In this document: one piece after another, positions 6,593 through 54,008 of the stretch
Numbering within the stretch: the first letter of the stretch is position 1
How the letters are laid out: every line of letters begins with the position of its first letter
Source of the DNA: Hymenobacter sp. HSC-4F20
GTDB taxonomy: Bacteria; Bacteroidota; Bacteroidia; Cytophagales; Hymenobacteraceae
Reading direction: 5' to 3'
Length of the DNA: 64,000 bases
NCBI RefSeq assembly: GCF_019599275.1
Contig: NZ_JAHZTD010000001.1
Coordinates: forward strand, 372,001 to 436,000
The notes under the pieces: generated by a model
What the model was told of the DNA's origin: nothing
Seen by the model: the letters and a program-made list of their open reading frames with translations, nothing else
The model's database searches: none
Translations under genes and position numbers: made by a program

Positions 6593-6629
6593 AAGAACGT
6601 CATGTCGACCAACTCGACATGACGTTCTT
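6593..6629. repeat. Perfect 16-bp inverted repeat
   Basis: AAGAACGTCATGTCGA (6593-6608) and its exact reverse complement (6614-6629) are separated by CCAAC. It lies just upstream of the minus-strand DUF434 gene and downstream of the LytT gene, so it may be the LytT terminator or a REP-like palindrome. Confidence 0.7.
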
Positions 6630-14238: not shown

Positions 14239-15642
14239 ATGGCCTCACAATTACGCGGCAACGACCTTCGGCAGCTTGGCTTTCCGGAAGGTCGGGCCAT
14301 TGGACTCGCGCTGGCTCAACTGCAGCGCAAGCATCTCAAAAAACTCTCCCAAACCGACCAGCTCACGCTTCTGAAAAGCCTGCTGGCCGACCCCACTACC
14401 TACCTCACCCACCTCGACTGGAGCCATACAGCGGCCGCCTTGCTACCCCCGCCCAGCCGGCACATTGCCCTCACCGAGCGCAAAGAGTACACTGTGTTCG
14501 GGGCTGAGTACATTGAGCAGGGCGCCATTCATCAGATGGAAACGGCCATGAAGCTGCCCGTAACCGTCGCTGGGGCCCTCATGCCCGACGCCCACTACGG
14601 TTATGGCCTGCCCATTGGCGGCGTGCTGGCCACCGACAACGCCGTAATTCCTTACGCCGTGGGCGTAGACATTGGCTGCCGCATGGCCCTGTCGGTGTTT
14701 GCGCTGCCGCCTAAGTTTATGGAGCAGCGGGTGCAAGAGTTGCGCAAGCTCCTGCTCGACAACACCAAATTCGGCAACCGCGACGTATTCCGCCAAGGCC
14801 AGAAGCTGGGCCACGCCGTCCTCGACCGCCCGGAGTTCCAGGAAATTCCCTTCCTGCGCAACAAGCTGGATGCGGCCGCCGCGCAAATCGGCTCGTCCGG
14901 GGGTGGTAACCACTTCGTGGAGTGGGGCGTGGTCGACATCACCGACCCCAGCAATGAATTGGGGGTGCCCGTGGGCCAGTATCTGGGGCTATTGTCGCAC
15001 TCCGGGTCCCGCGGGCTGGGTGCCAGTATCGCCAGCCACTACACCAAGCTGGCCCAGGATACCTGTCAGCTGCCCGCCGAAGCCCGCCACCTCGCCTGGC
15101 TCGGCCTCGACACGGAAGCTGGGCAGGAGTATTGGGCGGCTATGAGCCTGGCCGGCGACTACGCCTCCGCCTGCCACCACCAGATTCACCAGCGCCTGGC
15201 CAAAGCCCTTGGCGAGCGGCCCCTGGCCAAAGTGGAAAACCACCACAACTTTGCCTGGAAAGAGCACCTCATCGACGGCCAGGAAGTAGTCGTCCACCGG
15301 AAAGGAGCTACGCCGGCCGGCAAAGGCGTGCTCGGCATCATTCCCGGCTCCATGACAGCCCCCGGCTTTATTGTGCGGGGTAGGGCCGAGGCAGCTTCCC
15401 TGTCGTCGGCATCTCACGGCGCAGGCCGGCAGATGTCGCGCACCCGGGCCAAGCAGGAGCTGGGCGAAGCCGACGTACGCCGCTACCTGCAGCAGCACGG
15501 CGTAGAGCTGCTGGGCGGAGGCGTGGACGAAGCGCCTCAAGCCTACAAAGACATCCACCAGGTAATGCAAAGCCAGACCCAGCTGGTGGATGTGCTCGGC
15601 TCCTTCACCCCGCGTATCGTGCGCATGGAGGGCGGCGTGTAG
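14239..15642 (+). CDS. rtcB: RNA-splicing ligase RtcB
   Basis: 467-residue GTP- and Mn-dependent RNA ligase that joins 2',3'-cyclic phosphate (or 3'-phosphate) ends to 5'-OH ends. Metal-binding DIGCRM (Cys147), GSSGGGNHFVEWG, HSGSRGLG and the guanylylated-histidine motif SHGAGRQMSR are all present, and length fits the family. ATG 14239 (MASQLRGNDL) is chosen over an upstream in-frame start that would run through the Y-RNA-like unit 7. It follows the TROVE, TIGR02452 and Y-RNA array on the same strand; in Salmonella rsr, yrlA and rtcBA likewise form one locus. No RtcA cyclase is seen here. Its TAG stop lies inside a 71-nt palindrome. Confidence 0.97.
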   Translation: MASQLRGNDLRQLGFPEGRAIGLALAQLQRKHLKKLSQTDQLTLLKSLLADPTTYLTHLDWSHTAAALLPPPSRHIALTERKEYTVFGAEYIEQGAIHQMETAMKLPVTVAGALMPDAHYGYGLPIGGVLATDNAVIPYAVGVDIGCRMALSVFALPPKFMEQRVQELRKLLLDNTKFGNRDVFRQGQKLGHAVLDRPEFQEIPFLRNKLDAAAAQIGSSGGGNHFVEWGVVDITDPSNELGVPVGQYLGLLSHSGSRGLGASIASHYTKLAQDTCQLPAEARHLAWLGLDTEAGQEYWAAMSLAGDYASACHHQIHQRLAKALGERPLAKVENHHNFAWKEHLIDGQEVVVHRKGATPAGKGVLGIIPGSMTAPGFIVRGRAEAASLSSASHGAGRQMSRTRAKQELGEADVRRYLQQHGVELLGGGVDEAPQAYKDIHQVMQSQTQLVDVLGSFTPRIVRMEGGV

Positions 15643-15709
15643 CTACTTCGTATAAATAAAAAGGCCCCGATACTGTATCGGGGCCTTTTTATTTATACGA
15701 AGTAGCTAC
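15639..15709. terminator. 71-nt perfect palindrome, bidirectional terminator after rtcB
   Basis: Two 35-nt arms are exact reverse complements around a single T at 15674. The core is a GC-rich stem (GGCCCCGATAC) with A- and T-runs on both sides, so it terminates in both directions. The symmetry extends another 15 bp past the A/T runs on each side and takes in the rtcB stop codon (15640-15642). Confidence 0.9.
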
Positions 15710-48098: not shown

Positions 48099-48668
48099 AT
48101 GAATTCTTTCCTGCGTTATCTATTTTCTCCGCTGGCAGGTGCCGCATTGCTGGTAGGTGGGCTGAGTGCCTGCGAAACCACCAAGCGCGGCTTTCCCGAG
48201 GTCAGCTCGCCCACTACCGACCAGGATGTGCTTAACCGGCGCAAAATGGAGGCTACCAGCAAGCAGGTGGCCGAAGTGGCGGAAGGTAAAATCCGCTATA
48301 TCGTGCCGCGGGAACAGCTGTCGGGGGCCTTTACCCGGGAGTTCAACGATGGTACGGCCATCGATAAAACGGTAATCCGGAAGGTGCAGGAGACCTCCAA
48401 GGACAAAGCCGTGTACTACCTGGTGGGCATGGGCCTGCGCAACGGCATGTTCCGGGCCATGGCTCTGCCCTTGCAAACTTCATCGGATAACAGCCTGTAC
48501 CTTAGCTCCAACGCGGCCCGGTACATCATTACGGGAGTAGGCTGCACGTTCTGCTTTTTCAACTTCGAGAAAAACGAAATTGTGGGCACTACCTGCGAGG
48601 AAAACACCGGCGGCAGCCGTTGCGACCTGCGCGTGGAGGAGCAAAACGGATTCTTTCAGCGCCGGTAA
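48099..48668 (+). CDS. Lipoprotein of unknown function
   Basis: 189-residue exported protein: signal peptide with ALLVGGLSAC lipobox, a charged helical part (TSKQVAEVAEGKIRYIVPREQL) and a C-terminal half containing GCTFCFF and two further Cys (TTCEENTGGSRCDL). No family recognised. Downstream of and co-directional with the M48 protease gene. Confidence 0.78.
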   Translation: MNSFLRYLFSPLAGAALLVGGLSACETTKRGFPEVSSPTTDQDVLNRRKMEATSKQVAEVAEGKIRYIVPREQLSGAFTREFNDGTAIDKTVIRKVQETSKDKAVYYLVGMGLRNGMFRAMALPLQTSSDNSLYLSSNAARYIITGVGCTFCFFNFEKNEIVGTTCEENTGGSRCDLRVEEQNGFFQRR

Positions 48669-48670
48669 GT

Positions 48671-48814
48671 ATGCTTAGCCGCAAATGGATTCTGCGCCTC
48701 TCGCTCACGGCTTTGGCCTTGCTGGTTACCACAGACCGGCGGCGGCCCACGCCGCCTACCCCGCCCCCGCCCAAAAAGCCGGATGATGGGCCAGAGGAGC
48801 CCCGCCACTCATAA
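48671..48814 (+). CDS. Possible 47-residue proline-rich peptide
   Basis: ATG 48671, two bases after the previous stop, opens 47 codons with a hydrophobic start (MLSRKWILRLSLTALALLV) and a proline-rich tail (TPPTPPPPKKPDDG). The tight spacing supports a third operon gene, perhaps a small membrane peptide. The stop is inside the palindromic terminator. No homologue recognised. Confidence 0.5.
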   Translation: MLSRKWILRLSLTALALLVTTDRRRPTPPTPPPPKKPDDGPEEPRHS

Positions 48815-48858
48815 AAAAGGCCCGCCAATTGGCGGGCCTTTTTTATGAGTGGCGGGGC
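48799..48858. terminator. 60-nt perfect palindrome, bidirectional terminator
   Basis: An uninterrupted self-complementary sequence centred between 48828 and 48829 (core CCAATTGG) with A- and T-runs inside each arm and GC-rich outer ends (GCCCCGCCACTCAT). It terminates the lipoprotein operon and, in the other direction, the hydrolase gene ending at 48861. The same architecture is found after rtcB. Confidence 0.9.
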
Positions 48859-48860
48859 GC

Positions 48861-49571
48861 CTATATCAGCCCTTCCTGCACAGTCTCGACGAAGCGGGCA
48901 ATGCGGTTCACCAGCAGATCGGGGTTTACTTTTTCCAGCGCGTGCGGAGTGTTCATGATGATTTCGAAGGTAGCGCGGGGCATGTGGTCGGCGAAGTAGC
49001 GGGAGGCATCCACGCCGGCGGTTTTGTCCAGCTCACCTACCAGCACCTGTACGGGTACTTCCAGCTCGGCTAGCTTGGCGGGAGTAAGCAAAGGGGCTTC
49101 CCCCAGGCTACGCATCATGGCACTGGTAGCCGCCAGTAGCTCCGGCAGGGGGGTAGGGGCGTGCGCCTGAGTAAGCTGCGCCACGAAGTGCGGCACCTTC
49201 TCTTGCATCTTCGCCAAATCTAGCTGCCGGATTTCCAGCATGGCCGTAGCCGGCGACCAGTCGAGCTTAGTGCCCAGGGTAGTAATACTGCAAAACAGCT
49301 CCGGGGCCGCCACCGCTGCCGCCAGAGCTGCGTAGCCGCCCATGCTATAGCCAACTACGTGCACCGGTGGCAGGCCGCGCTCCTGAATGAAGTGCTGTAC
49401 CTCGCGGGCAAAACTTTTCATGGAAAACTCGGTGCTCACCAGCGGCCGGCCCCCGTGTCCGCTAAACGAAAACGAGTGTACCTGATAAAAAGGCGGCAGC
49501 TCGCGCACCAGAAACTTCAGCTGAGCCTCCGATGCCAGAGCCCCGTGCAGAAGTAGGAGGGTATGTTGCAT
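48861..49571 (-). CDS. Alpha/beta hydrolase
   Basis: 236-residue alpha/beta-hydrolase. Oxyanion-hole segment LLLHGALASE, nucleophile elbow VGYSMGGYAAL (Ser ~ residue 95), acid in VGELDKTAG and His in NTPHALEKV complete the catalytic triad. No signal peptide. Substrate unknown. It ends three bases from the 60-nt palindrome. Confidence 0.92.
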   Translation of the reverse strand: MQHTLLLLHGALASEAQLKFLVRELPPFYQVHSFSFSGHGGRPLVSTEFSMKSFAREVQHFIQERGLPPVHVVGYSMGGYAALAAAVAAPELFCSITTLGTKLDWSPATAMLEIRQLDLAKMQEKVPHFVAQLTQAHAPTPLPELLAATSAMMRSLGEAPLLTPAKLAELEVPVQVLVGELDKTAGVDASRYFADHMPRATFEIIMNTPHALEKVNPDLLVNRIARFVETVQEGLI

Positions 49572-51267: not shown

Positions 51268-51365
51268 TACCCCTTTGCAAAAAACGGGGCGGAAAGGGCC
51301 AGGAAATTTCGCTGGTCTCAACCACAAACCGCCCAACCTGCTTACCTTGTAGTGCTTACCTAGTG

Positions 51366-54008
51366 ATGAACGACCGGATGGATGACCGCCTGAAACTATC
51401 GGCCTCGCGCGCCAAAGCTGCCTGGAACAGCCGCCCTGCGGTAGTTCCTGTGGGTGGCCCAGCGGGCAAGCTGCCCCCCCAGGCTCTGGAGCTGGAGGCT
51501 GCCGTACTAGGCGCGCTCATGCTGGAGAAGGACGCCCTTACCACCGTAATTGATATTTTGAAGCCGCAGAGCTTCTATAAAGATGGCCACCAGCGCATTT
51601 TCAAGGCTATCCTGAATCTGTTCGATAAATCGGAGCCCATTGATATTCTGACGGTTACGCACGAGTTGCGCGAAATGGGCGAGCTGGAAGCAGCCGGCGG
51701 CGCGCACTACGTAGCCAACCTGACCTTCAAGGTGAACTCGGCGGCCAACATCGAGTACCACGCCCGTATTATCACCGAAAACGCCATCAAGCGGGAGCTG
51801 ATCAACATTGCCAGCAACATTCAACGCGACGCCTTCGAGGACACTACCGACGTGTTTAACCTGCTGGACAGCACGGAGCAGTCCTTGTTTGAAGTGTCGG
51901 AGTCGAACATTCGCAAGAACTTCGACGACATGCGGAGCCTAATGGGCAAGGCCATCAAGGAACTGGAAGAAAAGAAAGACCAGAAAGACGGACTGACCGG
52001 CGTGCCCAGCGGCTTCTCGGCCCTCGACCGTGTAACTTCAGGCTGGCAACCATCTGACTTGGTGATTATTGCCGCCCGCCCCGGCATGGGTAAGTGTCTT
52101 GGAAAAGGAACCAAGGTGCTGATGTATGACGGCACGCTGCGTAATGTAGAGGACGTACAGGCCGGGGAGCTGCTGATGGGCGACGACTCGACCCCGCGCC
52201 GGGTGTTGAGCATTGCCCGCGGCCGGGAGCAGATGTACTGGGTGCGTCAGAACAAGGCGGAAGATTACCGCGTCAACGAAAGCCACATCCTGTCCCTGAA
52301 GCGCAGCCGCACCGAGGGCAAGCACCGCCACGGCGACGTGCTCAACATCACGGTAAAAGACTGGCTCAGCAAGTCGGCCAAGTTCCGCTCCAACTACAAG
52401 GGCTACAAAGTGCCTGTGGAGTTTGCTGCGCAACCAGTGCAGGTTGATCCGTACTTCCTTGGGGTGTGGCTCGGCGACGGCTCATCGGACAACTGCCGAA
52501 TTACGGGACAAGACCCGGAAGTTATTGATTACCTGTACGAATACGCCGCTGAGCTGGACATGCAGGTGACGGTGGGGGTAGTAGAAAACCGCTGCAACAG
52601 CTACGGCATCACCCGTGGTCGGCAGGGGGGTAGCCTCACGCAGTATTCTCTGCAAGATGAACTGCGGCAGCTAGGCGTGCTTGGTGACAAACACATTCCA
52701 CAGGCCTACCTCATCAATAGCACCGAAAGCCGCCTGCGCCTGCTGGCCGGCCTGATTGACGCCGACGGCCATCTGGACCCGGCGTCCAATGGCTACGAAA
52801 TCACGCAGAAAAACCACCGCCTGGCCCGGCAGATCAAGTTCCTGGCCGACTCACTGGGCTTCCGCACGTCTTTGAAAAAGAAGCGGGCCGCCATCAGCGC
52901 CATTGGGTACGAGAGCGAAGTGTACCGGGTGCGGATTTACGGCGACATAAACCGGGTGCCGGTGCGGGTGGCGCGCAAGCAGGCCCAGCCCTGGGCTAGC
53001 ACCGTGGACTGGCGCATGACCGGTATTTCGGTGGAAGCCGATGGCGAAGATGACTACTACGGCTTCGAAATTGACGGCAACCGCCTGTTCCTGCTTCAGG
53101 ACATGACTGTGACGCACAATACAGCCTTCGTAGTATCGGCGATGCGCAATGCGGCGGTGGAGTTCAAGAAGCCGGTGGCTATTTTCTCGCTGGAAATGTC
53201 GTCGCTGCAGCTTGTGAATCGTCTGATTTCGGCGGAGGCGGAGCTGGATTCGGAGAAAATCAAAAAGGGCAACCTGGCCGACTATGAGTGGGCCCAGCTG
53301 AACCATAAGATTTCGGCCCTGTCGTCGGCCCCGATTTACATCGACGATACGCCGGGTCTCAGCATCCGGGAGCTGCGTACCAAGTGCCGCCGCCTCAAGG
53401 CCCACCACGACATCCAGATGATTATCATCGACTACCTGCAGCTGATGACAGGGAACACCGATGGTAAGGGCGGGGGCAACCGCGAACAGGAAATTGCCTC
53501 AATTTCGCGGGCCCTGAAAGGTATTGCCAAGGAACTGAACGTGCCGGTGCTGGCTTTGTCGCAGCTTTCCCGTTCGGTGGAAACCCGCGGCGGCGACAAG
53601 AAGCCCCAGCTCAGTGACCTTCGTGAATCGGGCTCTATCGAGCAGGACGCCGACATGGTAATCTTCCTGTATCGCCCAGAGTACTATAAGATTACCGAAG
53701 ATGAAATGGGCAACCCCACCCAGGGAACCGGCGAAGTAATTATTGCCAAGCACCGAAACGGCTCCCTGGAAACCGTGCAGCTTAAGTTCATCGGCCGCTT
53801 TACCAAGTTTGCCGACTTGGATGGTGCTGGTGGCTTCAGCGACGCGGGCTTCAACCCCGGCGCCTTCCCCACCAGCACCTTCGACGACGACCAGAGCGGG
53901 TTCGCCCCGAACACCATCCGCTTGGGCTCCCGCATCAACAACGACGGGCCGCCTCCCGCGCAGCCCTTCCCGCGCAGCACTTTTGATGATGGGCCCCCGC
54001 CGTTTTAA
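51366..54008 (+). CDS. dnaB: Replicative DNA helicase DnaB containing an intein
   Basis: 880-residue precursor. Exteins: N-terminal DnaB domain (~30-130, PPQALELEAAVLGALMLEKDAL), linker, and RecA-like helicase domain with the Walker A region ARPGMGK-TAFVVSAMRN, DDTPGLSIRELRTKCRR, Walker B MIIIDYLQLMTG and the terminal GGDKKPQLSDLRESGSIEQDADMV motif. The intein interrupts Walker A after GMGK, so the helicase is inactive until splicing. After removal the helicase is about 538 residues, with a Pro/Phe-rich C-terminal tail (PPPAQPFPRSTFDDGPPPF). ATG 51366 is used; a GTG precedes it directly. Confidence 0.96.
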   Translation: MNDRMDDRLKLSASRAKAAWNSRPAVVPVGGPAGKLPPQALELEAAVLGALMLEKDALTTVIDILKPQSFYKDGHQRIFKAILNLFDKSEPIDILTVTHELREMGELEAAGGAHYVANLTFKVNSAANIEYHARIITENAIKRELINIASNIQRDAFEDTTDVFNLLDSTEQSLFEVSESNIRKNFDDMRSLMGKAIKELEEKKDQKDGLTGVPSGFSALDRVTSGWQPSDLVIIAARPGMGKCLGKGTKVLMYDGTLRNVEDVQAGELLMGDDSTPRRVLSIARGREQMYWVRQNKAEDYRVNESHILSLKRSRTEGKHRHGDVLNITVKDWLSKSAKFRSNYKGYKVPVEFAAQPVQVDPYFLGVWLGDGSSDNCRITGQDPEVIDYLYEYAAELDMQVTVGVVENRCNSYGITRGRQGGSLTQYSLQDELRQLGVLGDKHIPQAYLINSTESRLRLLAGLIDADGHLDPASNGYEITQKNHRLARQIKFLADSLGFRTSLKKKRAAISAIGYESEVYRVRIYGDINRVPVRVARKQAQPWASTVDWRMTGISVEADGEDDYYGFEIDGNRLFLLQDMTVTHNTAFVVSAMRNAAVEFKKPVAIFSLEMSSLQLVNRLISAEAELDSEKIKKGNLADYEWAQLNHKISALSSAPIYIDDTPGLSIRELRTKCRRLKAHHDIQMIIIDYLQLMTGNTDGKGGGNREQEIASISRALKGIAKELNVPVLALSQLSRSVETRGGDKKPQLSDLRESGSIEQDADMVIFLYRPEYYKITEDEMGNPTQGTGEVIIAKHRNGSLETVQLKFIGRFTKFADLDGAGGFSDAGFNPGAFPTSTFDDDQSGFAPNTIRLGSRINNDGPPPAQPFPRSTFDDGPPPF
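52095..53120 (+). mobile_element. DnaB intein with LAGLIDADG homing endonuclease
   Basis: 342-residue in-frame intein (precursor residues 244-585). The N-terminal block is CLGKGTKVLMYDG with Cys1; block B-like VNESHILSL follows (~residue 60-70 of the intein). Endonuclease region: FLGVWLGDGSSDN and LLAGLIDADGHLD, two LAGLIDADG-type helices. The C-terminal blocks are YYGFEIDGNRLFLLQDMTVTHN with penultimate His and terminal Asn; the +1 extein residue is Thr. All splicing residues look intact. Insertion is between Lys and Thr of Walker A (GK-T), a site known for DnaB inteins such as those of mycobacteria. Confidence 0.96.

Follow-up and report, generated by a model that had tools for sequence, protein, structure and literature searches.

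We have analyzed a perfect 60-nt palindrome (positions 48799-48858) in a stretch of 64,000 nucleotides from Hymenobacter sp. HSC-4F20, referred to here as the window, and conclude that it is probably an ordinary bidirectional terminator that hairpin template switching has lengthened in the course of replication. This reading is drawn from comparisons of sequence. The palindrome had been pointed out in an original prediction made from the window, and an inverted-repeat scan of the 64 kb found it to be exact (arm 30, loop 0). The features needed below are these; G and L numbers in the text are our own handles for genomes and loci.

48099-48668, + strand: 189-aa ORF that precedes the small ORF; no Pfam match
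48671-48814, + strand: conserved small ORF of 47 aa; MLSRKWILRLSLTALALLVTTDRRR start, then a variable tail; no Pfam match
48799-48858: whole perfect palindrome, 60 nt
48799-48812: left mirrored extension, 14 nt; encodes the C-terminal residues of the small ORF and supplies the first base (T) of its stop codon
48813-48844: core shaped like a bidirectional intrinsic terminator (A6, GC stem, AATT, GC stem, T6)
48813-48818: A6
48819-48826: left GC stem, GGCCCGCC, followed by the centre AATT
48831-48838: right GC stem, GGCGGGCC
48839-48844: T6
48845-48858: right mirrored extension, 14 nt; within the hydrolase 3' untranslated region
48861-49571, - strand: alpha/beta-hydrolase gene, convergent (Abhydrolase_1, E 1.8e-16)
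15639-15709: rtcB palindrome, arm 35, loop 1; extends into the rtcB stop codon

The core at 48813-48844 is predicted, from its form and position, to be a bidirectional intrinsic terminator for two convergent genes. Its perfect GC stem with A6 and T6 provides a GC hairpin and a T run on both strands, and it lies between the small ORF on the + strand and the hydrolase gene on the - strand. The unusual part of the palindrome is the 14 mirrored bases beyond the A/T tracts, which cross the stop codon of the small ORF: the TAA at 48812-48814, the in-frame stop of the ORF at 48671-48814, is inside the palindrome, and the hydrolase stop TAG (48861-48863) is two bases from it. The predicted RNA fold of 48799-48858 reaches -72 kcal/mol, against a mean of -30.7 for shuffled sequences (z -12.1), and 0 of 200 shuffles folded as well. 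The window contains 12 inverted repeats with an arm of at least 11, among which perfect arms longer than 16 are found only in this palindrome and in the one at rtcB. The two were predicted to share an architecture. Both are real and both reach a stop codon, but the GC-rich end that was part of the proposed architecture fits 48799-48858, where G/C occupies 10 of the 14 outer arm positions, and not the rtcB palindrome, where it occupies only 7 of 19.

Terminators of the same form were sought throughout the HSC-4F20 genome with the pattern AAAAAGGC-N(6-30)-GCCTTTTT, which matched 40 sites; the reversed control matched 1. The number of perfect mirror bases past the A/T run was 0 at 20 sites, 1 at six, 2 at one, 4 at two, 5 at one and between 7 and 21 at the remaining ten. 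Ten of the 40 pattern terminators thus carry extensions of at least 7, or 8 of 38 once the two sites in the window are set aside, compared with 2 of 1560 cross-paired flanks, a control in which the left flank of one site was combined with the right flanks of the other sites. The perfect arms therefore exceed chance, as hairpin template switching predicts. Since extensions were first defined by perfect matching, they are biased toward perfection; a mismatch-tolerant recount, which answers this only partly, found 2 mismatches among 148 pairs in the extensions of at least 7. The same pattern, applied to one locus per genome in 30 genomes of Hymenobacter and other Hymenobacteraceae, gave extensions of 23, 12, 11, 8, 6, 4, 3, 1 and 1, with 21 zeros. 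Extensions reached at most 7 in 28 loci from Bacteroidota of other families, 22 of which had none.

A census independent of this pattern was taken of perfect inverted repeats with an arm of at least 20 and a loop of at most 20, in stretches at coordinates fixed beforehand. Eleven Hymenobacteraceae genomes yielded 50 such repeats in 1.52 Mb (11 in 400 kb of HSC-4F20, 15 in 400 kb of G111 and 24 in 720 kb of nine further genomes), or 25 to 50 per Mb in each. Escherichia coli K-12, the one comparator outside the Bacteroidota, had 0 inverted repeats with an arm of at least 20 in 400 kb; a published map describes the E. coli genome as poor in inverted repeats of at least 13 with short spacers (PMC6060812). 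Outside the Hymenobacteraceae, G203 had 8 in 120 kb and G306 had 1 in 80 kb, while no long arms were found in 180 kb of G219, 60 kb of G261 or 20 kb of G208. The process is not universal in Bacteroidota, given the maximum extension of 7 outside the family and the absence of long arms in the G219 sample. G203 (L276-L281) and G219 (L282-L290), which differ so clearly in their counts, belong to one family (code f4).

Some of the census repeats resemble repeat elements and not terminators, namely a 40-nt arm in HSC-4F20, a 41-nt arm and one 20-nt arm in G111, and two repeats in G122. The first of these, in the HSC-4F20 sample L255-L274, has TGTCATCCTGAGC ends; it and similar repeats in G111 have the look of dispersed elements. 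The same sample holds an arm-27 palindrome (GTATAGGATATTGGAGC...) at tandem genes, with a T run in its left arm, which does not have the form of a terminator. Loss of the hairpin nuclease SbcCD was considered as a cause of the long arms and rejected: SbcD scored above the cut-off in 16 of 19 genomes, HSC-4F20 included, and also in E. coli.

The position of the long palindromes relative to genes was examined in two genomes, HSC-4F20 (samples and window) and G111, with gene orientation taken from a codon-score script and not from annotation, and leaving out hairpins at sample edges and inside genes. Of the hairpins at convergent ends, 23 of 64 have an arm of at least 18, compared with 9 of 74 for those at tandem ends (Fisher p 0.0012); counted per gene pair, the figures are 23 of 111 convergent and 9 of 433 tandem pairs (p 1e-10). 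In HSC-4F20 alone the difference holds per gene pair (9/59 versus 6/250, p 0.0004) and is not significant per hairpin (9/34 versus 6/42, p 0.25). Two palindromes in one window had been taken to suggest a general process making symmetric bidirectional terminators, an idea that lack of enrichment elsewhere in the genome would have undone. It was not undone: there is an excess at pattern terminators and a concentration at convergent pairs, and the idea is partly supported. "Making bidirectional terminators" is too narrow a description of the process, because some long palindromes, though fewer, lie at tandem genes or lack an A/T tract; it is better described as a process that symmetrises existing hairpins, the products being kept mostly at convergent ends.

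The history of a single site can be followed downstream of the hydrolase gene, for which 63 orthologous loci, including HSC-4F20, were compared. The hairpin arm is at least 20 in 11 of these and 10 to 19 in 37, and 15 have no scorable hairpin near the stop. Long arms are thus present at 11 of the 48 scorable loci, and their sequences are mostly unrelated between species; the extension is dispensable, since the other 37 do without it. A related core is nevertheless recognisable at many of the orthologous sites despite the differing arms. The long and short states changed at least 9 times on the hydrolase tree, a quick tree in which 16 of 60 inner branches are open, and the nearest scored relatives (L004-L006) have arms of 11-13, compared with 30 in HSC-4F20. 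Long arms have accordingly a lineage-specific origin at a conserved hairpin, another expectation of template switching. L027, L073 and L097 form the only clade consisting of long arms; L097 differs from L027 by one indel and two substitutions, every one of which is mirrored in both arms. Arm co-evolution had been proposed as a check, and it holds, the arms differing between relatives yet remaining matched. L086, scored as long, may be a different element: its hairpin is displaced 64 nt downstream, has a 14-nt loop and is accompanied by a local repeat.

The small ORF was recognised by motif search in 29 of the 63 loci, HSC-4F20 included, and its stop lies wholly within the hairpin in 9 of these 29. 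The first half of the ORF at 48671-48814 is near-invariant, and its hypervariable tail is encoded by the terminator flank.

Other sites were followed in the same way. Five species were scored at the L036 locus. Four of them, HSC-4F20 included, have arms of 36, 31, 24 and 24 with differing sequences, and the fifth, L216, has an arm of 14; seven loci of twenty fetched were given here, one of them without an anchor and two one-sided. Arms at the L049 site are 11-20 in all seven relatives. For the L056 site, four loci out of eleven fetched were given; one was removed for odd anchors, another has no hairpin of arm 9, and in the remaining two the arms measure 16 and 15. Orthologous rtcB sites have an arm of more than 25 in 2 of 30 loci, HSC-4F20 included.

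If one arm was copied from the other, one flank should be ancestral and the other its reverse complement. Extensions were therefore aligned, anchored on the core, to the flanks of relatives and to 80 unrelated flanks. For L095 the score of the coding side with the flanks of L093, L090 and L102 was reached by 0 of 80 unrelated flanks, and by 29-80 of 80 on the other side; with the remaining relatives the coding-side counts were 1/80 (L098), 4/80 (L105) and 29/80 (L099). For L026, unrelated flanks reached the score in 0-3 of 80 cases on the coding side and in 35-61 of 80 on the other. These alignments clearly point, in L095 and L026, to the coding-side flank as the donor and to the hydrolase 3' untranslated side as its copy, one flank being ancestral and the other its reverse complement. 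L015 gave 0/80 versus 4/80 with one relative only, and the rtcB site showed weak polarity (4/80 on one side, 8/80 on the other). L011 gave a null result against its relatives and the 80 unrelated flanks, and at 48799-48858 neither flank aligns with those of relatives, so that no donor side was found at the window site.

The mechanism that we propose for these palindromes, and for the origin of 48799-48858, would operate as follows. During DNA replication the nascent strand would fold at the terminator hairpin; the folded strand would prime itself, copy the flank just synthesised and then rejoin the template. The reverse complement of one flank would in this way replace the opposite flank, so that long perfect arms form in a single step, and further events could re-match the arms repeatedly. 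The products would be kept mainly at convergent ends, where overwriting falls on untranslated sequence and the symmetric hairpin serves both transcripts. Hairpin-primed template switching would explain the perfect arms, their abrupt ends, their centring on a standing hairpin, the mirrored indel and the recurrence. In E. coli, template switching at quasipalindromes is described as increasing their perfection (PMC7202029).

The most serious alternative is selection alone: both transcripts need the hairpin, which would leave Watson-Crick pairs as the only ones retained on the two strands, and the stem would have grown by ordinary compensatory substitutions for stronger termination, for 3'-end protection or for RNase III cleavage of read-through RNA. 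The strong preference for convergent ends is what selection for pairing on two strands predicts, and the extensions, at 0.51 G+C, are slightly richer than the sequence beside unextended terminators (0.45), although they do not exceed the sequence just beyond them (0.575). Compensatory evolution is also documented in Bacillus cereus terminators, where bidirectional terminators form a separate class (Safina et al., PMC5381666). We nevertheless consider selection alone unlikely. The 37 scorable orthologous sites that lack an extension, the arms that are mostly unrelated between species and yet nearly free of mismatches, and the indel mirrored in both arms of L097 and L027 all speak against stepwise growth of the stem, as do the long palindromes that 9 of 74 hairpins at tandem ends form. 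A terminated transcript would not contain the outer 3' arm, which is situated past the U tract, and termination should thus be unable to select for it directly. Selection for pairing on both strands does probably decide where the products of template switching are kept.

Perfect arms should also arise in one step, and without hairpin template switching, if a flank were duplicated in inverted orientation through breakage and ligation or through recombination between the ends of genes. In the resolved cases, however, an existing terminator hairpin forms the centre of the mirror, which hairpin-primed copying predicts and random duplication does not, and we regard such an origin as improbable. Still less can be said for insertion of a palindromic repeat or mobile element (REP, MITE or the like) between the genes: some other long inverted repeats share a GTCATCCTGA-like end and resemble repeat elements, but 48799-48858 is found at one place in the genome and so is not a mobile repeat, the arms of the 10 extended sites share nothing, by eye, beyond the terminator core, and the orthologous site retains a related core with different arms. 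Chance or an assembly artefact merits hardly any weight, the control flanks reaching 7 so seldom and comparable long-palindrome rates being found in five single-contig genomes (G111, G077, G069, G048 and G015); the HSC-4F20 assembly is a draft of 44 contigs, and nothing was found in favour of either.

Bidirectional terminators and template switching at quasipalindromes are both already known. The bidirectional Rho-independent terminators described with TransTermHP (PMC1852404) likewise combine a GC hairpin between convergent genes with an A tract and a T tract, one on either side of it; here the perfect mirror extends 14 nt beyond each tract and crosses a stop codon, and the program, as described there, drops stems resembling tail-tail pairing. 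Quasipalindrome mutations (PMC7202029) are alike in that hairpin-primed copying perfects an imperfect inverted repeat. That account deals with reporters and hotspots, while here template switching is proposed as a recurrent, natural and family-wide lengthening of terminators. Template switching has also been proposed as both maker and maintainer of RNA hairpins (PMC8794818), on phylogenetic evidence of one-step perfect stems and coupled changes in the arms; that study differs in treating RNA genes such as rRNA, and the word "terminator" is absent from its main text. The stems of B. cereus terminators (PMC5381666) similarly remain paired as their sequence changes, but by two-step substitutions with intermediates, and "template" does not appear in the main text of that paper. 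Long perfect inverted repeats that run into coding sequence are reported from the mitochondria of Nematomorpha (PMC6649704); unlike those studied here, they reach 284 bp and lie within genes of animal mitochondria. Sequence-directed template switching has been offered, as recounted in PMC4060949, to account in part for the surplus of short inverted repeats that prokaryotes show. Among the titles and opening lines of abstracts of the open-licence papers searched, we found no report of template switching at bacterial terminators or in Hymenobacter.

It has long been asked how RNA stems can change in sequence and yet keep their perfect pairing. The terminators analyzed here constitute a dense natural record of this, in which one orthologous hairpin has independently made, species-specific perfect arms, and with this record block-wise template switching and stepwise compensation can be tested directly against each other in bacteria. 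The contrast between lineages that have long palindromes and lineages that lack them, in turn, offers a route to the controlling factors. It is possible, if rather doubtful, that in the Hymenobacteraceae, and patchily in other Bacteroidota (G203 but not G219, for example), an unusually active hairpin template switching continually rewrites the 3' ends of genes, turning terminators into long perfect palindromes, renewing their sequence and, by crossing stop codons, being able to alter C-terminal tails such as that of the 47-aa small ORF. Were this so, the presence or absence of long palindromes at the genome level would reflect differences in replication or in hairpin repair.

Two further features of the window may be mentioned. 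The hairpin at 6593-6629 (arm 16, AAGAACGTCATGTCGA...) has no GC stem and T run, and similar letters are found downstream of the hydrolase in L104. The ORF of 881 aa at 51363-54008 is one that we take, from its resemblance, to be like a replicative helicase, with an apparent intein after GMGK.
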